Positions 4,600-23,000 of a stretch of 64,000 bases of DNA are shown one piece after another. Source of the stretch: Chytridium lagenaria (lineage: Eukaryota > Chytridiomycota > Chytridiomycetes > Chytridiales > Chytridiaceae); contig JAHLKC010000022.1 of the NCBI GenBank assembly GCA_025449115.1, positions 1-64,000 on the forward strand, in the 5' to 3' direction. The notes beneath the pieces were generated by a model. That model made no database searches, was not told the DNA's origin, and worked only from the letters and a program-made list of their open reading frames with translations. Each line of letters opens with the position of its first letter. The first letter of the stretch is position 1. A program made the translations under genes and the position numbers.

Positions 4600-5103
4600 T
4601 GTTGGGTTTCGCTCACTTGACTCACGAGGACGCGTCAGGATCACTCGCACCATTAGTCCGCGGCGTCGGGCGCAACACTAGAGTGCTCTGGAATTTACGC
4701 GTCGTTAGAGTTGAGCGCGAACGCGCCCACTGGACTTCTCATTTACATTCTGGACTCGTTCTGAATTTCTCACTTTGATTTACCTTCCTTGATTGGTTTA
4801 TTTTCTTTATGCCATTTAATTATAATCTACCTGTTTGTGATTGGATATTCCCTTCTAACCTTTATTCCCTTTGTTCCCGTCAAGGCTCTCTGATTTGTTT
4901 ATCTTTGTAGTGGAGAGTTTAACGCGTGAGTGTACACGTCTCCGATAGGTTTACCTTTGTGTTGTCTTTCCTCTTTACTTGTTCGTTTTGTTTCAGTATT
5001 TAAAGACTCGTGTTTTGAGTTGAAATAAATTAAGAACGTTGTTCGAGTAAAAGTGCGTTTATCTTTGTTTTAATTGAGCCCCGTGAACAACAAGTATTCA
5101 ACA
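4600..5103 (+). repeat. 3' LTR of copia A
   Basis: 504 bp, TG...CA ends. Its first 85 or so bases are closely similar to the start of the LTR of inverted element B (6423 downward), while the rest differs. It contains three ACGCGT hexamers (about 4629, 4697 and 4921) and an AT-rich stretch near 4795-4835. The flank after it begins AAACA. Confidence 0.93.
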
Positions 5104-5798
5104 AAACATTCGCGGTCTTCACCTCCGCGTTGCCGTTGCTGATTGTTATGTCTCCCTGCAGCATACGCTTGAGCACCTTCACTGTCCTCTGTTTCCTTCT
5201 TTCTTTCTTTAATTTTCGTTTCATGATCTAACAGTTTTCCCACCACATTGGCATAATGGGTCTCTGCTTTGGCGTCGTTCTCGAGGAGATTTACGATAAT
5301 ATCATACGCTTCTGGTAGGGTGGTCAGAAGGATAGAGATGGGCTGCGGGGTTCCAGTGTCCTCCCCCGCAGCCTTTAGTTGCTGGATTGTTAACGAGATC
5401 TCTGCAATGTAAGTCTTCAAGTCGTCCTCTTCTTTCATCTTCAAGTTGGTGAGCTTTCTTCTAATCGCGTTTCTGTTTGTCTGAGCCTTTCTCTCATAGG
5501 TCTCAACAGTTTTATCCCAAGTTGCTTTCGCCGTTATTTCATCCTGGATTAACGGTAAAATGATATCATGCACTCTTGATTCAATTCTCGCTTTTGCTTT
5601 CATATCCAGGTCTTCCTCTTCTAACCTAGTTTTCTTCTCGGCGTTTGTAGGCGTGTCAACGACTGCCTAGGGCGTCCAGCCCTTATCGACAATCTTCCAA
5701 AGGCCCTTGCCTTTGAGGTACCCGACCATGCGGTACTTCCAGATGTGGAACTGTGTGCCATCGAACATCACAGGTTTGTCGTCCTTTTCTTTCGTCAT
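5104..5798 (-). pseudogene. Gag of inverted copia B, disrupted by copia A
   Basis: Reading the minus strand from ATG 5798, the protein shows the same gag signature as element A (KPVMFDGTQFHIWKYRM, then a KARIESR...KLTNLKMKEEDDLKTYIAE region and LTTLPEAYDIIVNLLE). A TAG stop sits in frame at about 5670. The frame ends abruptly at 5104 in the first Cys of the zinc knuckle (RECF), exactly where the LTR of copia A begins. The downstream part of B is not in the window; it would lie left of coordinate 1. It is a paralogue of A's gag at moderate identity, hence an older, related family. Confidence 0.9.
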
Positions 5799-5947
5799 CT
5801 TCTCGTGTTGACTGGTTCCTTTCTTTGGTGACTTGGGACTGATTCTTTCTTTCTTGCGATACTCACACTCTTCTCTACTGTTCTCTACTCCTTAGTCCTC
5901 AAATGGATCAATCACTCCTTCTTCCAACCAGATGAAGTGCTACCACT

Positions 5948-6423
5948 TGTAGGGGTTTACGGGGCTCTTTGTAATTATAGTAATAAACTTAATAAACTAA
6001 TAAATGTATAATGAACTGGTGAACGAGGTCTCCAAAGGTGACGACTAACTAATACTGATGACAACTAACTTATTATTAGTATAGGTTAAAACAATACAAA
6101 AATGATATGTGGGTGGCACTCCTAGCTTTAAGGTCTTCTGACCGTGCATCCCTCATTGTCCCAAAACTAAACATAATAAATAAACTACGGGCGGGGTTTA
6201 AAACATATCAAACTGACAACTTTTAACTTAAGGAATGAAGGCAAGAATTTAGATGGGGGCAACAATAGACTTAGACAAATTTAAATGTGGGTGAGTAAAC
6301 AAACTAGAAAGATGAAACCCAACAGTGAATTCTAGAGCACTCTAGTGCTGCGCCCAGCGCCGCGGACTGATGGTCCAAGTGATCCTGACGCGTCCTTGTG
6401 AGTCAAGTGAGCGAAACCCAACA
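5948..6423 (-). repeat. 5' LTR of inverted copia B
   Basis: On the minus strand this begins TGTTGGGTTTCGCTCACTTG at 6423 and ends TACA near 5948. The primer-binding site TGGTAGCACT follows at 5936-5945 and gag begins at 5798. Length is about 476 bp, close to the 504 bp of LTR A, and the first 85 bp are shared with it. The middle and end are unrelated, suggesting a chimeric LTR pair or conservation of the U3 end. Confidence 0.85.
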
Positions 6424-6454
6424 ACCCTCTCACAATGTTTGTTTACAGCAAGAA

Positions 6455-7262
6455 AGAAAACCTACTTTATCTAAATCGGATAAAGATTCAATGCGCTGCA
6501 ACAGTAGAGGCTGCAAAAGCAGTGACTCCGCATAAGTGGCATCTAAGAATGAGTCATCTTGGAAAACAATGATCATTTTTGAAAAACTGAAGAGATAAGA
6601 GCGAATGATCCTCTCGAAAATCACGTTGATACTGTTAGACCCATGAAGAACGCGCCTAACAGAGGAGCGCAATATTTTCTCACAATAGTGGATAGCAACC
6701 AACTATGTCACCACTTATCTCTCCAAGAGAACGTCCAAGCTTGGTTAGGGGACGTTTAAAGAAATCATTGCAGATAACGGTGGAGACTTTGAAACAAAGA
6801 GCTGAAGGACTGGTGTGTGAAACATAGACTTTGAGTCACCTTCAACATACCTTTTACTCCAAAGTAAAACAGAATTGCAGAGAGAATGAATAGAAACCTG
6901 AATGAATGTTCAAAGAGCTACACACACACATAAACGGCACATATACGCGCCACCTCCTTCAATAAAAACCCTATAAAGTGGGAAAAAGAATATATAAAAA
7001 ACCCAGAGGGAAAAGAAGGGAGGATTCAATATGACGTGTAAATATATGCGTCGAAGTGGGAAATAATGGAACTCAACGGACTTAGGCAAAATGTCCTTAT
7101 GAGCTATAGGCCATGTGAATAATGTAATTCTTTACATTTGGGTGCGTTGCCTTAGTTTTGATCACAAAGGAGACTTAAACGCTCGTTGTTTTGTGCTTGT
7201 GCGATATGAGCCATTGGAATATTGCCTGTGGGATTTGAGAGAAAGTTGTGAGATTATAAGAT
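6455..7262 (+). pseudogene. Degenerate copia integrase remnant C
   Basis: Short collinear pieces of copia integrase remain on the plus strand despite stops and shifts: HKWHLRMSHLG (His of the zinc site), RPMKNAPNRGAQYFLTIVDS, EIIADNGGDFE (catalytic Asp), NRIAERMNRNLNE (catalytic Glu) and, near 7205, GYEPLEYCLWDLRES-like residues. It is an old copy, much more diverged than element A. The LTR of inverted element B abuts it at 6423, so B probably inserted in or next to it. Confidence 0.8.
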
Positions 7263-7529
7263 AACCTCACCAAGAGGAATGAACGCGTCGCTTATATAGA
7301 CGTCGTGCCTTTATCCTTATTTCCTTGTTCCCGTTCCATTCTTTTCCTCTCGGGGTTTTTCATAGTTTTTCCCCATAGATACCAGAGAGGTTTTTATAGA
7401 AGGAAGGGCGGTCGACGTGGTGTGCCAACTTATGCCATGCTACCACGTTGGTTGAGATGCCTGTTGTTGTTATTTGATTCCCTTTTTATGTATTGTTTTA
7501 TTATTTGTAGAAATTTGAATAGATTTATG
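7263..7529. other. No gene seen
   Basis: AT-rich filler between the integrase remnant and repeat R1. An 80-codon ORF here has no recognisable content and low-complexity composition. I see no promoter or RNA gene. Confidence 0.5.
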
Positions 7530-8538
7530 TTCACCCCACAGACCTAGAAGGCCCTCCTGCTTCAGGCCAGCCTCTGGCTGAGCTTTCACCAACCCCTTTT
7601 ATTATCTATAGTTTATTGAATGTTGCCAGCGGGTGCTCAGGTGATGGCGTCGCCGGGAGAGACCGCAACCCAGACCAAGATGAACTTCTAAGAAGGTATG
7701 AGCAGTAGAAATACGCCTTATTTGCATGATTCCTTCAAGGGTCTGGTCGGAGAACCACGCCTGTTGCTATATTGTTGACGACATATGCCATCCCGATATT
7801 TGGAGTGGGAGTAGCGGCACGTAAGAAGCCCGTGGATGGATGAGACAATAGAAACAACATGTTAAAACGGTTATAAGGAGCAGTAACGGAGACCTGACAC
7901 ATTCCTTGGAGCGGGATGGAATCCCTTCTCGTAAAACCCTTTCCCCTTGTCACTTTCGACCTAGTTATGAGGCATTTCCCTTCATTTTCCCCCTTCTACT
8001 AACCATCAGAACGGAACACAAACCACAGTTGAGTCTAAGAAGGCCTGAGCCCTGGATAGACGCCTCTGTGGCATGATTCCTTCGAAGGTTTGGGTAGTAT
8101 AACCACCTCTGTTCTTTTCTCGATTGCGATGACTGGCTATCTAGTTGCTTGTGAGTGGGAGTGCGGCATGAGCAGGGCCTTAGGTAGAAGAGATCAGATG
8201 AGAACATGTATAAACGGCTTATTGCGGCGATTACGAGGCCTTGTACACTACTAGGAGCGGGATGGACTCCCTCCTTGATGACCCTTCCACTCTGGCGCGT
8301 TGGATCTCCGCCTGAGTACCTTTTTCCTTCCTTTTCCTTCCTTTCTTTCATTTTGATTAGTTTTAGAGCAGAACCACAGCAACTTAAATCCCCGCTGTCA
8401 CTAAAGGCAGAATAGGGCTTGACTCTTGATCTAGGAGTACCTCCTAGACTCTAGTCTCGTCACCTATTATGTGGTTCTCTACCTCTGTATGCCGGGGCTT
8501 AGCAGAGGGGGCCATAGAGAGAACTTCACAATATGCCT
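7530..8538 (+). repeat. Dispersed repeat R1, copy 1, with two internal tandem units
   Basis: A non-coding repeat also seen at 24,280-25,925. Two diverged units of about 270-300 bp stand in tandem (about 7687-7950 and 8035-8310). Each runs from TCTAAGAAGG... through ATGATTCCTTC, a GAGTGGGAGT block and AAACGG to GGAGCGGGATGGA. Upstream is a block beginning GACCTAGAAGG and containing CAGGCCAGCCT. The 3' end is sharply defined: GTGGTTCTCTACCTCTGTAT...GAGAACTTCACA at about 8471-8533, also found at 22,558-22,620. After it, unrelated copia sequence starts. It could be a solo LTR or a SINE-like element; no coding capacity is visible. Confidence 0.65.
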
Positions 8539-15332: not shown

Positions 15333-15731
15333 TCAATGATAAGACATGGGGATAATCCCAGCCCACCCCAAGGACAGGAAGTTGGCTCCAACTGAAGAAA
15401 GGCTAGGAATGGGGCCAAAATGAAGAGGAAAGAATTATCAAATTTATTCAAAACACCAAAATGTCTCCATTTATACTGGAGACAAACCAAAATAAAGAAC
15501 AAATAAACAGAAACAAAACACAGTCAAGGCACAAGTTGTATGAATTTCCCAAGAGTATGTTAGACTTTATTTCATCTATCAATAAAACATGCGGTGTCGC
15601 TTCCAACCATCCATCACCCACCTGTATGAATTTCACAAGAGTATGAAATTCACACAGTCGCACAGACTATCCGTCAAATATCCCCGTCACGCATCACCCC
15701 ATTATTGGGTTGATGATCACCATCCCAAACA
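15333..15731 (-). repeat. 3' LTR of inverted copia E
   Basis: On the minus strand a purine tract (GAAGGGGAG) is followed by TGTTTGGGATGG at 15,731. The likely end is ATTGACA at 15,333, giving TG...CA ends and about 399 bp. It directly follows the RNase H reading frame of copia E. No second copy in the window confirms the end. Confidence 0.65.
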
Positions 15732-15739
15732 CTCCCCTT

Positions 15740-15925
15740 CATCAACCCGAGCCCACTCCGGTGTATTTCGAACGCGGGCCGTTGTAATCCTTTGGTAAGA
15801 ATATCCGCCGTCATCCCCATCGTCCTCACATGCCTTATCTCCACTTCCTTTCTCTTCACGTGGTCCCGCAGGAACATGTACTTTACGTCCATGTGCCTTG
15901 TTTTATGCCATTGGGATAAATACCG
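15740..15925 (-). pseudogene. Copia E, last part of RNase H
   Basis: The minus strand encodes the conserved tail of copia RNase H (SQWHKTRHMDVKYMFLRDHV, then MTADILTKGLQRPAFE). Everything upstream of the SQW residues is replaced at 15,925-15,931 by the left end of the inverted-repeat element. At the far side of that element (22,515-22,540), minus-strand codons TPWVISQ could be the missing continuation, consistent with insertion into this gene. Confidence 0.8.
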
Positions 15926-15930
15926 GGGTG

Positions 15931-15968
15931 AAAACCGACGACTAGTAATAAAATTTCGTCGAATTTCA
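15931..15968 (+). repeat. Left terminal inverted repeat of the 6.6-kb element
   Basis: 38 bp starting AAAACCGACGACTAGTAATA. It is an exact reverse complement of 22,476-22,513. Similarity beyond the core on the outer side is weak and needs gaps. Confidence 0.9.
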
Positions 15969-16095
15969 AATATACACCGTTGTATACGTACGTTGATCAA
16001 TTTCAATACCGTTGCACAGAGAAAATTGACAATTCTTTTTCTGACAACGTTTACTACCGTATACGTCGGTACGTTGTGCTTTTTCTATTTTTTCA

Positions 16096-16494
16096 AAACG
16101 AGCGTCGCACCAAAAAATAAATCGGTCACCAAAGGTATGTCACCGCATACGTGGTATGCGTTGCCGTGATGGCATGCCTTCTTGACATTTCCGATACCAA
16201 GAGCAATGCCATTCACATCACATTTGTACATATGATACATAAACATATACCCTACAGCTCCTATTAATATCGCTGCAATATCGGGCTTCCCCAAGTCCCT
16301 GCAGCACTTGATGGAATCACATCGTAGAGGCCAACACATGAATTTACCAAAAAATGAGCGTCGCACCAAAATATAAATCGGTCACCAAAGGTATGTCACC
16401 GCATACGTTGGTATGCGTTGCCGTGATGGCATGCCTTCTTGACATTTCCGATACCAAGAGCATGATACATAAACGTATACCCTACAGCTCCTAG
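16096..16494. repeat. Direct duplication near the left end of the element
   Basis: The block at about 16,096-16,200 (GAGCGTCGCACCAAAA through TTCCGATACCAAGAGCA) recurs at about 16,354-16,460 with few changes. A second shared block (GATACATAAAC..TATACCCTACAGCTCCTA) lies at 16,230-16,264 and 16,463-16,494. The apparent 94-codon minus ORF across it comes from the repeat and shows no family motif. Confidence 0.85.
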
Positions 16495-16522
16495 GGTTTT
16501 TATTACAACAAATTCTAAAGTA

Positions 16523-19183
16523 TCAACGTCGGGATGTTGATTTCTTTAAAAACGCCTCGCTCCCTTTCTTCTCCAACTCTTTCCACACTATCCTATTTGC
16601 CATACAAATATACGTAAAAATTGTCATTATTGCATGCCCTTCAGTCATGTACGAGACCATCTGTCGTAGAACTCCCATGTTATGGTTGGCTGACTCTGTG
16701 TAGCTGGTATTAAGGTCTCCAACCCGCTCGTGCTGTCTGTAGTGTTTGGCGTGGGATGCAGCAGAGCAACCTTTGTAGGCATTGGAGTGAAAGTCGTCAA
16801 TAATAAAGCGGCAATTCTTGAAGAACCCATTCTTCTTGTCGTTACGTGTCTGGTAGAAGAGGAGGGACCAGCTGACAAATAAGCGTAAGCGTTACAAGTA
16901 AGGAAAAGAAAGGTGTTTCATAATATAATGAAGGTTTACCTTGTTGTGGTTCAACCTCTCGTTCTTTCAAAAATCGTTAACACTTACAACCTTAATATTA
17001 TATTAAATGTTCATACCTCTTTTTCTTGCCTTCGACGCGATAGACGGGATAGACACGTTCTTGGCTGCAATAAAAAAGGTTTTAGAAAAAAAATTATCCT
17101 AAGTATACGGCGTTAAGCGGGTATAGACAAAGGTATACGTCTAATTATAACAGTATACGATTGCATACGGCCGCAAGCCGTAACAAGTGTTAAATGTTAA
17201 AGTAGATGATAAAAGAAAATACAATAGAACTTTAAACCTACGCAACGTAACAGGATGTTTTGGCGTCTTTGGAGACTTGGGCGATTCTGTTGTTGGCGAC
17301 TTAGCTGCATTCAATTAGCGTAAGCAAAAGAATTGTAAATAAAACATAATAATTTACTTGGTTTTGCGGCGGGAACAGCCTCCTCTTCCTCCTCGTCTTA
17401 CATAGAAAAAAAATAATTATTAAAATCAGCATACTGTCGTAGACGGCAGCATATGCAAAATGCGGTTATAAACCAAGGTATACGGCTATTTATAGCAGTA
17501 TACCATCGCATACGGCCGCAAGCCGTAACAAGTGTTAAATGTTAAAAGTAGATGATAAAAGAAAATACAATAGAACTTTAAACCTACGCAACGTAACAGG
17601 ATGTTTTGGCGGCTTTGGAGACTTGGGCGATTGGGTTGTTGGCGACTTAGCTGCATTCAATTAGCGTAAGCAAAAGAATTGTAAATAATAAATATTGTAA
17701 ATCAAAAATACTTAAACTTACTCGGTTTTGCGGCCTCTTCCACCTCCGGTGCTTTAAATAAACATTTTTGTAAATTCGAAAATGCCGACATAATGCTGAA
17801 ACTTAACCGGGCTTTTAAGTCTTAGGCGAGGTAGACGTAGTACCCTTTTCTTAAATTAATGTTAGTCCAACGTTCAAATACCACATCTATACACAGTTTT
17901 TTAAAAAACTTTGAATATATAATCCATAGACTTACCCTTTCCCTTTGATGACGACGAGGTTATCGAACCTTTACCTAACAAAAACCTTGTGAGCGTACTT
18001 GGCGATGTATGGTTAACAGCAGCAGTACGTTTTGGAATACCGTGGTATACCCGTGGTATACCTAGTACGGTTAAACTCACCTTTTCCAGCGGTCGGCAAC
18101 GGCTCCTCCGTTATCTCCATCTCTTCTTTGACATGAGCCTTCTTACTTTTCGCGACGTCGATGCTCAATTTAGGCGGAACCTTCGCTGCTCAATATCACA
18201 CACAGAAGAAATTAGAAATCAACTCCGCATGACATAACGACGCTCAAAATACCTTTAACCGACCGTTCCTGTTTTGGCTTGACGACCTCTATCTCGTGCT
18301 CTATTCTTGTAAGTCCGATAAGATACTTTACATACCTTTGACGTAGGATACCACGGTCGGTTCATACCGTGACGTCGATTCCTCGACGTCACTTTCAACT
18401 TCCTCAGCAGGCTTGCCGATGAATCTAACTTTTCGTAAGGGGCAGGCTTTTACCGTGGCAGGGGCTCTTGCTTGCGTGGCTCATCAGGCTAATAACGATT
18501 ATCATTTAAATGATTCAAATTCAAATACCACAGCAACGACCTCCGATTCTTTGTCGGCCCATTCGATGATAACATGGTTATCTTCGTCGATGAGATAACC
18601 AGCAACTCGAGGGCTTTCCGGGGACCAGGTGTCCTGGAAGGCGCTGATGTATGCATTTTTGCCTAGTAGCGTCAATACATGAACTCGAGTGTATCCTACC
18701 TTTGCAATCTTTAAACGTAAACTTTCGGCAACGGCGGGATCAAACCCTAACTTTGGGAGGGAGTCCATCAATGCTGCAATCCTGACTTTCTCCGTGAGTA
18801 GCACATCCATGGCTTTCTTCTCCGCCTCAGTCAGGCGATATAATCGCGTTGTGACTCCTAATATACTTTTACCATAATAAGAATTTAACATCATAGCTAA
18901 CTTACTTTCGGGTTGCTGTGACCGTTTGCAAATGATAGTGGCCCTTCGCACCGCGTTTTTCTGTTGCTGTACTTCGTTGGGGTTGCTGAATGGTGGCGTG
19001 GGAACCGCCAAGTATCGAGGCCAGACCCTAGTATACGGATGCCGAGGAATCCAGTCTCATCATCATGGTAATGATAGGACCCCGCATTGCATGCCCATTG
19101 GCGCTAGTACTGCGCAAGTGGTCCTCCAAATGCCTTGCTGTTGTGATGGACTCCACCTCTTCGTCACAACATGGGCAATACAT
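16523..19183 (-). CDS. Element gene 1: zinc finger protein with DDE-like C-terminal block, many exons
   Basis: The start at 19,183 opens MYCPCCDEEV followed by TARHLEDHLRS, a Cys-Cys/His-His finger. Exons join in frame: 19,183-19,037, 18,960-18,906, 18,857-18,529 (GT-AG introns of 76, 48 and 40 nt), giving 177 codons including a helical domain (LTEAEKKAMDVLLTEKVRIA...). Further left are small exons coding acidic and Ser/Pro/Lys-rich linkers, two of them duplicated. The last exon (about 16,873-16,523) has an open frame reading FIIDDFHSNAYKGCSAAS... NTSYTESANHN...QMVSYMTEGHAIM. That resembles the FH...H...C, NTS/AEQxN and SYM signature at the Glu end of KDZ-associated DDE transposases. That last exon also has a second open frame that joins the linker exons, so which frame is used is unsettled. 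Function as transposase is inference. Confidence 0.5.
17155..17745 (-). repeat. Tandemly duplicated exon pair inside element gene 1
   Basis: About 230-250 bp at 17,155-17,385 recurs at 17,490-17,745, beginning in both with GCATACGGCCGCAAGCCGTAAC. Each copy holds, on the minus strand, a short acidic exon ending AAKP and a short exon coding KSPTTESPKSPKTPKHPVT (or TTQSPKSPKPPKH in the other copy), with splice signals conserved. Duplication has extended a disordered linker. Confidence 0.8.
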
Positions 19184-19619
19184 TTTTTGCAACAATTTTC
19201 TTTAGTGTTACTGTAGCAGTCATACGGATATTTGCTGTTGGACTTCAAATAAATCCGTTGAGCACAAGCATCTATCAGCGTATAAATTGCATACCATTAC
19301 ATACTGTTAAATATTATGACATACCATTGCATACTTTTAATGTAACATAATTCGCATGTTTGCTGTGAGTTATTCCCTAACCAGCCAACCCACTGAACTC
19401 TACGTAAACCACAGCATACAAGCGTATACCATGATTTTCTACTTTTTTTCAACAGATACGGTTTATTTTGGTACATATGCACCATGCAGCTAAACAATAT
19501 AAGGCCAACAAGCCGAACGTTTATATATGCTATGCAAAGACATAGAGGGTATTTAACAATAAACAGTTATATTAACATGCTTGACGCATTGACAACAAAT
19601 TTTTTTGGACTCAACGAAT
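19184..19619. promoter_or_regulatory. Divergent promoter region between the two element genes
   Basis: 436 bp separating the two start codons, AT-rich, with repeated CATACCATTACATAC / CATACCATTGCATAC words at about 19,289 and 19,321 matching the element's characteristic vocabulary. No TATA box is certain. Confidence 0.4.
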
Positions 19620-21452
19620 ATGGATAAGAACGGTGAAGTTCAACGGCAACAACTGCAGAACACATATGATGATGGTGAATACAGAATACATTGAATAATA
19701 AGCCTTTGAACGTTATTAACTTTGATCTTTATACACACAATCTATAGATTATGATGGCTCGGGAAGCCCTGAGGAGCCAACTTACAGTGACGATGATGAT
19801 GAGCCAACTCAGATTGAGGAGATGATGGAGGTTGATGCGTTGAATGAAGACTCGAATCGTAGTCAAAGACTCTCACGAAGATATGTTCGAATGGTTGATA
19901 GAAGTACCGCCGCACGGGGGGACACTTCAAATGAAAACAGTGAGTTCAATGCTGGTATATTGTTGACAACTCTGAACTTATAAGGACAACGTGAACAATC
20001 AGCAAACTACCAACATACAAATCAAAGCCGTAACAGATCCCATTCAGACTCTCTTCTGGCGGCTTCTCCTCCTCCTCCTCCTCTTCCTGTTCCTCTTCCT
20101 CTTCCCATTGAAGGTGCATACAAAATTAGAAGTGGCCAAGTTATACAGGATGGTACATTAACTTGAATATGGCAAACAATAGCTCACCTTTTTGTTTAAG
20201 TAAGTGTGAAGCAGTCCAACAACCGAAGAAACGCATTTCCCAATGTGAACTGCCCTGCACAAACTAGATCAATGACAAATTCCTTTTTTCGACGGCATTG
20301 GGAGCATCTCGTTCAAACGGTAAGTGCAGTTTAACATTTCATAAACATTCTTACCCCTGTATCTAGGCTGATAACATGAGTCGAAAAATCAACGCTGGAA
20401 TTCTCTTATTAGCTACTTACCCGGGGGCTATGGCAGCCAAGGCTTATACGTCACCAGGATTTCAGCGGCATGTTCCAGGTGAGAAACGGCTGCAAATTTA
20501 TTGCGTTATACACATCTACCAACGGAAACTGTGGTATGCCATAGTCTATCAACGCATACAGCAGTTGTACGTGGTATACCGCGACATACTGTGGTTACCA
20601 CAGTATACCGCAATATACAGCATTTTACTGCAGCAGTATGTTTAACCACGCGGCACAATGCTGTATATTAACGCATACCGTGAAATTCTTATCTGTTTAA
20701 TTTTTATAATGGTGATGGTTGTTAACGTTTAAATAGGCTTTGGGATTAGAGAGCTGAAAAGATTAAATGACCGCTACATTGTTGGCGTCGGAGGTTCAAA
20801 CCTACAGACCGCAGCTGCACAGAATGACAGTCTTCAATTAATGATGCACGAAAACAATGCGATACAGAGGACCATGATATCCAACTTCACGTTTTTACAC
20901 AAAGTGCAGGACGAAATGAAAGACAGCTTCGAAGCATCGCTTCTTTCATTTAAAAACATATTGGACGAATTCGACAAGAAGCTCACTGATATTGCCGAAA
21001 AGCTGGATTCGTCATTCGAAAGTGGCAGCGGTACGTCTTAATTTGAATATTGTTTTATTACATTTGATTCGGTTCGAGTCTGGAAAAAAATTAATCTAAC
21101 CATAATAAATTAAAAAGGGATACGTCCAAGGGTCAGGATTGCCCCCGTTGAACACCAAACTATTCCTGATAACAGCCGTACTTCATCACGTGTGTCAAGG
21201 CCATTACCTCGCTTTTCGGAAGACTCATCGCCGCCTCGCCGATCCGAACGCATTAGAAATCAGCAAGCTTTTCTCCCAAAAAACAAAGAAGGACTCGACG
21301 TACTTCTAGAGGTTACTCAAGGCCTTTGTCATCTAGAGGAACTGACCGATCAAGATCTCGAACTGATACAGCTCTTCAGAGCGGGGAGTTCACCTATGAA
21401 AATTAGTAGGTACAACTCCAGATCATCTCGGAGAAGCGACAGATATCGATAA
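19620..21452 (+). CDS. Element gene 2: unrecognised multi-exon protein
   Basis: ATG 19,620 and exons 19,620-19,674, 19,748-19,939 and 19,985-20,113 join in frame with GT-AG introns. They encode an acidic N-terminus (YDGSGSPEEPTYSDDDDEPT), a basic RSQRLSRRYVRM segment and a Pro-rich stretch (AASPPPPPLPVPLPLP). Later exons include one coding PAQTRSMTNSFFRRHWEHLV (about 20,220-20,322), one coding MSRKINAGILLLATYPGAMA (20,370-20,480), one with a coiled-coil look (DEMKDSFEASLLSFKNILDEF, 20,737-21,031) and the last (21,119-21,452), ending in a Ser/Arg tail. The exon between 20,113 and 20,220 is unresolved. I recognise no family. The acidic-proline N-terminus and helical middle suggest a DNA- or protein-bridging accessory factor, but that is guesswork. 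Confidence 0.5.
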
Positions 21453-21929
21453 TTATGTAAACTCAATCATATGAATAAATGCCGTAAAATTTTTTGTAAA
21501 ATAGTTAAGATATAATGTTAATGTACACAGCATTAGCACTTATATATAAGCAATGGCGCAAAAAAGCGTATGTCTACGCACGTAAATCAGCGATTCCGTA
21601 CGCTTGCGACTGTAAGCGCAAACGTTTGTATGCGTACGCATACGTCCGCACATACGTCTGCGAAAATGTATATATGAAGCAATGATAATTAAATTATCTC
21701 ACTTCCTCGATACTCCTTATGTGGCGCTCATAACTAGTACTGCTACTAATAACAGTTACTAAAAGAATAACTATACACTACTTAGATTTTTAAAGAAGAA
21801 GGAAATATATACCATGTTCTCCCTTTTTTATATCGAGCCCTTATGTGGCATAGAAAAAAACTAAATTGAGTGAATATTGCCTATTGATATCAGATGAATA
21901 CCTGATTGTCCATTTACATTGTTGGTAGA

Positions 21930-22475
21930 TCAGTGATATCTGCTATATATTCTACAAGGACTGACGCTATGGTCGCTTGCAGCACACGGTTAAAGTTGAC
22001 CATCATACAAGTTATAGTGTGAAGCCGTATACCGTGGTATACCGTTTTTATGATTCATTGACAAATCGGTTAGGATTATAAAATTGACAATTATATAGGC
22101 TAAAGTATGAGGCCGTACGCAGTGGTTATTTCCTAACCATAAATTATTTCATGAAAAGTAGTCATCTTTCCGGAATTGACAATTCTATAGTTCAAAGTTT
22201 AAAGCTGTATACGGTGGTATACCGTTTTATGAATTCGTTGACAATTTGCATTTGATAACGATTTGACAAAATTTAGGTACTAAGTTTCAAGCCGTATTAC
22301 GGTGGCCTGGGGCTAAAAAATATCCATTGACAATTTGTATTAAAGCTATAATTTTCACAACAGCATGGTATACACAGGTATACCGCGGTCAAAACAACCT
22401 ACTCGAAACATCATTTTACAACGAAAAATACTCCGTCATACCATGGTACACGTTTGTATGCGAACGTATATGATC
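21930..22475 (+). repeat. Subterminal repeats at the right end of the element
   Basis: Three to five diverged units of about 85-100 bp share TTGACAAT (about 22,063, 22,084, 22,176, 22,238, 22,262 and 22,327) and an AAGCCGTATACCGTGGTATACC-like palindromic block (22,024, 22,205 and 22,290, the last degenerate). AAATTGACAATTC also occurs inside the left end at about 16,024. Arrays like this near the ends commonly serve as transposase binding sites. Confidence 0.65.
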
Positions 22476-22513
22476 TGAAATTCGACGAAATTTTATTACT
22501 AGTCGTCGGTTTT
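22476..22513 (-). repeat. Right terminal inverted repeat of the 6.6-kb element
   Basis: 38-bp perfect reverse complement of 15,931-15,968. Confidence 0.9.
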
Positions 22514-22534
22514 GTACTATGGGATATAACCCAG

Positions 22535-23000
22535 GGAGTTAGTATCGTCACCTTCAATGTGGTTCTCTACCTCTGTATGTCAAGGCTGAGCAGAGGAGGC
22601 CACTGGAGAGAACTTCACAAAATATGCAGGTTACAAGTAGATGGGTGATTCTCAACGAAGACGTGCTTGAAGCAGAAGCAATTCGAAAGGAGTTTTCTGA
22701 ATGGAGGAGTCACTTGGATTTACCTGGTTATACAACAGATTCATCAATTTCTGGATGAAGTGAAGTTGAAACCGCCGTGAATGATTCAGAGTCTGAAGAA
22801 GACTAAGAGGATAAAGTCAGATTCTTAACTCTTGAAAAACTGGATAGAGAAACAGAAGAACGCTAACAACCATCCTCACCCATGGTGCGTCAAAGTGGTG
22901 GCGCAAGAGAATACCTAATTTCCATGAAAACGTGGAAGAACCATATCCTTGCTCGCTGAGAAGGTCAACTCGCGAGAAGAAGAAAGTGAATTTTGGACCG
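22535..23000 (+). pseudogene. R1 3' end fused to a copia linker remnant
   Basis: 22,558-22,620 matches the end of repeat R1 (GTGGTTCTCTACCTCTGTAT...GAGAACTTCACA). Directly after it, codons VTSRWVILNEDVLEAEAIRK and acidic residues, broken by stops, look like the linker between integrase and reverse transcriptase of a copia element. The same junction type (R1 end, then copia) occurs at 8533-8540. Confidence 0.4.

Follow-up and report, generated by a model that had tools for sequence, protein, structure and literature searches.

The question raised by this locus is whether a segment with clean inverted ends and an interior of its own is, as it appears to be, a single transposon. Within a window of 64,000 nucleotides of Chytridium lagenaria DNA (the whole stretch analysed here), the original prediction had recognized a mobile unit of 6.6 kb that was bounded by exact 38-bp inverted ends, carried two divergent intron-rich genes, interrupted a copia RNase H gene and belonged to no obvious superfamily. 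That the segment belongs to a mobile-element family has been borne out, but not its integrity and probably not its isolation from known superfamilies. The reading that we favor, and consider likely to be correct, is that the segment is a defective and rearranged copy of a Chytridium lagenaria family of DNA transposons of the Kyakuja-Dileera-Zisupton (KDZ) type, in its CxC4 branch, whose complete members measure 13-14 kb and have terminal inverted repeats (TIRs) of ~56 bp starting with GGG, and that this copy was formed by the joining of two insertions.

Over 41 nt, the arms at 15931-15971 and 22473-22513 show 98% complementarity, and in the printed letters, read by eye, their outermost 38 nt pair perfectly. 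Probes from the two ends were compared with the host genome (41.9 Mb in 356 contigs). The left-end probe gave 48 matches: six other copies span the query from positions 13-15 to the probe end at 92-97% identity, one further copy is partial, and the remaining matches cover internal repeats or no more than the TIR. The right-end probe gave 41 matches, and at nine other loci (at least 380 bases, 85-99% identity) these stop at query positions 531-534. Because the outer limits of the matches are fixed genome-wide, we place the termini at 15913 and 22532, 18-19 bp outside the 38-bp core, which gives an element of 6,620 bp. The left terminus is 5'-GGGATAAATACC and the right one, reading inward, 5'-GGGTTATATCCC; the TIRs are 56-57 bp long and imperfect in the outer 18-19 bases around the perfect core (Table 1). 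When the genome was searched for the end patterns with up to three mismatches allowed, 39 right-type and 28 left-type places were found, against none for the reversed patterns that served as a control. The ends are thus not confined to this place, and the predicted mobile unit with recurring boundaries is upheld, as are its exact inverted ends, with the correction that the true TIRs extend further outward.

Table 1. Features of the window copy and its flanks (positions in the window; a dot marks features without strand).
Feature	Position	Strand	Remarks
Left flank, copia RNase H	15663..15912	-	3' half, cut at element boundary
Left TIR	15913..15968	+	56 bp, imperfect; 38-bp core from 15931
256-bp tandem repeat by left end	16095..16493	+	Copy number varies between copies
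Transposase last exon	16523..16825	-	Sole remnant of that gene in the window copy; DNA 75.9% identical to that of the C39 element
Blunt junction	16826..16827	.	7.27 kb of the C141 copy missing
Gene A	16842..19183	-	3' limit approximate; exon structure tentative
Gene B	19620..21452	+	7 exons, all introns GT-AG; 418 aa
Gene B exons	19620-19674, 19748-19939, 20003-20152, 20201-20319, 20367-20478, 20737-21030, 21118-21452	+	
Intronic array	20534..20678	.	10-bp-phased GTATAC-like half-sites
Further phased arrays	~17103-17163, 17429-17508, 18035-18056, 19414-19424		
Right subterminal region	21994..22470	.	Repeated GTATACnnnnGTATAC sites at 22027, 22207, 22368
Right TIR	22476..22532	-	57 bp, imperfect
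Right flank, unrelated repeat	22533..22619	+	Last 87 bases (3' end)

Both ends could be paired in three complete relatives of 13.2-14.0 kb (C39:63795-76956, C221:18133-31296 and C229:1377-15381), and the termini of the family start 5'-GGG. The C39 element is a diverged relative, 66-76% identical to the window copy over the stretches that can be aligned. It is flanked on both sides by a perfect 8-bp target duplication, ACCCATCC, as is the C221 element by AAATGTTG; the C229 element has the 8-bp duplication GAAAACAC on both sides, with four extra bases adjoining one end. The C39 element is inserted in a copia reading frame which, read by eye, is unbroken in other copia copies. It is the one complete member that was fully read, and it contains three genes: an intron-rich CxC4 transposase, gene A and gene B. 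The transposase would cut at the GGG ends and paste the element into a new site.

The assignment of this transposase starts from two Pfam domains. The KDZ-associated cysteine cluster CxC4 (PF18717, cut-off 26.9 bits) is matched in the C39 exons with 87.5 bits (E=8.5e-25) and in a 955-residue spliced model of the C141 copy with 81.1 bits (E=8.1e-23); it has 51 matches in the genome and is present within all three complete relatives. The KDZ catalytic domain (PF18758) is matched below its cut-off of 26.6 bits, with 16.0 bits in the C39 exons (E=0.0098), with 22.6 bits in the last exons of C141 when these were scanned apart (E=1e-4, profile positions 72-213 of 217) and with 14.5 bits in its last exon alone (E=0.029); the whole 955-residue model has no KDZ match at E<=0.05. 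The matches of C39 and C141 cover the same profile positions (141-142 of the 217), a reversed control of the C39 piece gave no match, and the CRH, D..C, H...H.GC and E positions line up with those of six canonical KDZ fragments found in this genome. A profile-profile comparison (hhalign) with the same six fragments, for which the profiles were shallow, was not significant (probability 0.2%), and searches of PDB and NCBIfam with the catalytic part returned chance-level matches or none. As no homologue was found at E<=0.001 among the 5,038 candidates of a protein database search with the transposase model, the kinship of the transposase rests on profiles. In the window itself, a Pfam scan of the transposase fragment alone gave no KDZ match, and scanning the exons present in the window for domains did not yield a useful family.

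From the CxC4 cluster, the KDZ matches below the cut-off, the motif alignment and the 8-bp duplications, a KDZ-type family of the CxC4 branch appears to be the most likely reading; membership in KDZ is likely, though unproved at the domain cut-off. The earlier view that no known superfamily applied was therefore probably wrong, the relatives having a KDZ-associated transposase and 8-bp duplications. It could still be argued that the family belongs to a separate, undescribed transposase superfamily that has a CxC4 domain without being KDZ. The KDZ scores of both C39 and C141 fall short, the whole C141 model is silent and the profile-profile comparison negative, and the genome does contain PF18758 matches above the cut-off (17, at ~15 loci), all of them elsewhere. 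Against this, two copies match the KDZ profile over the same large part of its length, motif positions coincide with those of canonical KDZ fragments, a CxC4 cluster is present, and the 8-bp duplications are as reported for Zisupton and Dileera in the available part of PMC12730594; a superfamily apart from KDZ is thus, in our judgment, rather improbable.

The available part of the same source reports 8-bp duplications for Zisupton and a Dileera-type element and 7-bp duplications for Kyakuja families, and it shows that TIRs are not universal in KDZ, two Kyakuja families being without them (PMC12730594, section 3.2.1). The KDZ elements described in the literature consulted (PMC12730594, in its available part, and other sources) come from mushrooms, rusts and fish, along with some further groups. 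The chytrid relatives share with those of fungi and fish a CxC-type cysteine cluster, combined with a catalytic core that is probably KDZ-like, the 8-bp duplication of Zisupton and Dileera, and a large size with extra genes. They differ in their host, in a KDZ domain that scores below the Pfam cut-off, and in having two accessory genes of no named family and 10-bp-phased motif arrays; the window copy is in addition broken, and has nothing of its own transposase gene beyond the last exon. Unlike the TET+ KDZ elements of Basidiomycota, the family shows no TET/JBP dioxygenase domain: Pfam detected none in either accessory gene or in the transposase exons scanned. A literature search returned nothing joining KDZ, chytrid and transposon, and nothing joining Chytridium lagenaria and transposable element, from which we claim no absence from print. 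With this family, a CxC4 branch with several genes would be represented in an early-diverging fungus, and whole elements become available, with ends, duplications and an associated accessory gene.

Two other kinds of element were considered and rejected. CACTA/En-Spm elements have 5'-CA(C) termini and a 2-5 bp duplication, and En/Spm has subterminal motif arrays and a second DNA-binding protein, TnpA. The chytrid family resembles these elements and hAT in its short repeated subterminal motifs and, in the case of En/Spm, in a possible counterpart of the second DNA-binding protein; it differs from both in transposase, termini and duplication length, and its motif is also intronic and 10-bp-phased. 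CACTA/En-Spm was rejected on the 5'-GGG termini and the 8-bp duplication. Among hAT elements, Hermes has BED domains and subterminal arrays of binding sites (PMC10368747, available part). The PHIS group (Harbinger/ISL2EU/Spy) is similar in that its elements have at least two genes, of which one may encode a DNA-binding protein, and its duplications are of 0-3 bp (PMC12730594, section 3.1.4, in the available part); it was rejected on the 8-bp duplication of the chytrid family and the lack of a matching transposase domain in the scanned exons.

How, then, does a family of 13-14 kb come to be represented by an element of half that size? Between the bases that are adjacent at 16826/16827 in the window, the C141 copy holds 7.27 kb, which is most of the transposase gene, and parts of this segment are retained in C353, C79, C338 and C99. 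A 30-mer across the join was found only in the window's own two loci among all the loci fetched. At its outer boundaries the copy is flanked by ATGCCATT (left) and AGGGAGTT (right), and hence there is no target duplication. The left flank is the predicted copia RNase H gene, whose relatives at three other loci continue across the insertion point. On the right the interruption of that gene did not hold up, since the flank there is a different repeat: it has at least 39 other copies, and in eight of the eight that were read the sequence runs upstream past the boundary, which makes them empty sites. The two flanks are unrelated. The upstream half of the RNase H gene was not found beside the right end in a search of low sensitivity with a diverged copia query. 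An Rfam scan of the window at gathering scores returned nothing, so the right-flank repeat matches no Rfam family. Lacking a duplication and its transposase, the segment cannot be taken as the single intact element of the original prediction, and we rejected that reading.

The lack of a duplication, the uniqueness of the junction among the fetched loci and the presence of two different target repeats indicate that the window copy probably joins two insertions. The left part of one insertion, in copia RNase H, would have been end-joined to the right part of another, in the different repeat, and this end-joining would have removed most of the transposase gene; one and the same event would account for the loss of 7.27 kb and for the absence of a duplication. 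A different history can be imagined, in which one KDZ insertion lost the 7.27 kb internally, internal deletion derivatives being common among DNA transposons, and the host DNA on its right was later rearranged exactly at the terminus. The two parts of the copy are indeed about equally young (97.9% identical to C79 and 98.2% to C99), as one insertion would have them. Such a history requires, however, a second event that broke precisely at the right terminus, the right flank looks like an ordinary target that is continuous in the eight other repeat copies read, and the one joining event already accounts for what the second would be invoked to explain; we hold it to be unlikely. The family is highly repeated and several of its copies are cut by contig ends, circumstances in which the assembly itself might have produced a chimera of two KDZ copies. 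Repeat-driven misjoins are usually located in shared sequence, whereas this join is blunt, connects places that lie 7.27 kb apart in C141 and does not fall in sequence common to its two sides, and an artifact of this kind strikes us as very improbable. On the preferred reading, a joining of two insertions, the window copy illustrates that two insertions can fuse into a seemingly single clean element. It would be incapable of making its own transposase; having kept both ends and an open reading frame of gene B, it might nonetheless be movable in trans.

The two divergent intron-rich genes that had been predicted are there, gene A on the minus strand and gene B on the plus strand with a seven-exon model whose introns are all GT-AG; the transposase remnant is to be added as a third. 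The first exon of gene A contains a CPCC...HLEDH stretch which is kept in P0015 and has, as judged by eye, the spacing of a C2H2-like finger; the predicted zinc finger is supported to this extent, and Pfam gave no match to it. The gene has a conserved middle exon at ~18505-18860 and a tail that is repeated and rich in S, P and K, and it has 32 matching stretches genome-wide, its own included. Gene B corresponds to the NCBI hypothetical protein BC829DRAFT_415293, with which its sequence agrees except for the choice of exons. The 14 relatives it has in the database are without exception Chytridium lagenaria entries annotated as hypothetical proteins, and it has no credible Pfam match. The product has an acidic N-terminus and a coiled coil, and its predicted structure, with a mean pLDDT of 44.8, is of low confidence outside one long helix at the C-terminus. 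Part of the last exon is in a different frame from that of the C99 copy, so the C-terminus may be damaged.

Gene B is associated with the right end of the family. At 29 of the 39 right ends it is found 1.3-2.4 kb to the inside, its 3' end facing the TIR, and of the 141 rows of gene B matches within 3.5 kb inside right ends none is on the opposite strand. Two rows, from one locus, fall outside the end C14:419640, and these belong inside the neighbouring end C14:415906. The ten right ends without gene B are those at C9, C123, C148, C155 (19400), C21, C24, C141, C178, C207 and C29 (315328).

The distinct word composition that had been noticed in the interior is confirmed by the motif GTATAC: the 6,620-bp element has 20 copies of it and the remaining 57,390 bp of the window have 10, while 500 first-order shuffles of the element contain 2.0 on average and 7 at most. 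With GTATAC, GTATGC and GCATAC counted as half-sites, the window element has 38, of which three fall in the listed exons (a third of the element, the small tail exons of gene A being unlisted). The half-sites are regularly spaced. Among pairs no more than 40 bp apart, those separated by an exact multiple of 10 bp number 17 of 20 in the window element, 14 of 15 in C39, which is diverged, and, in two close copies of the window element, 22 of 27 (C141) and 14 of 15 (the C99 part), so that C39 alone is fairly independent. Outside the element the window has 30 half-sites, no two of which come within 40 bp of each other. In averages taken over half-sites, C39 has its eight best offsets at -40, -30, -20, -10, 10, 20, 30 and 40; the top six of the window element are -10, 10, -20, 20, -30 and -40, with +40 outside the ten best, and those of the C141 segment missing from the window copy, with its 13 half-sites, are -30, -10, 10, -20, 20 and -40. 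In the transposase gene one of eight half-sites is exonic in C141 and 4 of 10 in C39, so the avoidance of exons is weaker in C39.

These regularities make the phased GTATAC sites a possible candidate array for a DNA-binding protein encoded by the element. Gene product A, B or both might bind the 10-bp-phased arrays in subterminal and intronic DNA, and such binding could help in the pairing of ends or in the control of expression. More speculatively, and we put this forward only as a tentative proposal, the helically phased half-sites might serve as a scaffold on which a protein of the element (A, B or the CxC4 transposase) lines up along a single helical face for kilobases; this would package the transposon and bring its ends together, and introns would be places where the array could be kept without harm to the proteins. 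A rival account, to which we give a less than even chance of being true, is that the arrays are decayed 10-bp minisatellites without a binding function. Any 10-bp tandem repeat gives rise to 10-bp phasing, some of the motif sites lie within longer tandem arrays (91-bp units, in C40 and C61), and in C39 the half-site columns, which are better kept than the 4-bp spacers at offset 10 (information ~0.23 vs 0.13), are not so at offset 20 (0.11 vs 0.13). In the window element, by contrast, the half-site columns are the more informative at both offsets (~0.34 vs 0.21 at 10 and 0.17 vs 0.08 at 20), the spacer sequences vary, and phased arrays are present in both this element and the diverged C39. If the phased arrays were binding sites, they would offer a testable system for the recognition and assembly of a large transposon by its own proteins, and would suggest a reason for the many introns in its genes.

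The sequences GTATACCRYGGTATAC and GTATACNNNNGTATAC were also counted genome-wide. There are 155 sites of GTATACNNNNGTATAC against 37 for its control; among the matches listed, 49 of 50 are, as judged by comparison with the other matches of the family, in or near an end of the family or a match of gene A or B, the exception being C61:136110. Many of these sites duplicate one another or belong to the repeat units of a 91-bp tandem array, and they are therefore not independent. GTATACCRYGGTATAC has 15 sites against none for its control, and all 15 are in or near places of this family.

In the three family members carried by contigs C141, C79 and C338 of the host genome (loci L046, L042 and L043, respectively), the reading frame of the transposase is broken between the last two exons, and the break is identical in 3/3. 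Because it is common to all of these copies, it suggests either that they descend from a common ancestor copy that was already defective or that a splice at this point was not recognised. Canonical KDZ domains are found elsewhere in the genome: the 17 matches counted above the Pfam cut-off fall in about 15 loci (e.g., C185:10206-10748), all of them outside the loci of the window element's family.

A block of 150 bp, a repeat of one exon from the S/P/K-rich tail of gene A, is present twice in the window copy (17199-17348 and 17545-17694, 97%). In the C141 element, a 332-bp unit is repeated 7.6 times at 99% identity (L046, about 5009-7544), with gene A on one side and the transposase on the other. 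Close to gene B of related elements, there are tandem units of 91 bp, each with one GTATACnnnnGTATAC site (C40:274624-275640 and C61:12383-12853).

Window positions of the repeat that forms the right flank of the element
Feature	Position	Other copies in the genome
3' end of the repeat	22533-22619	at least 39
Second, diverged copy of this 3' end	8452-8531
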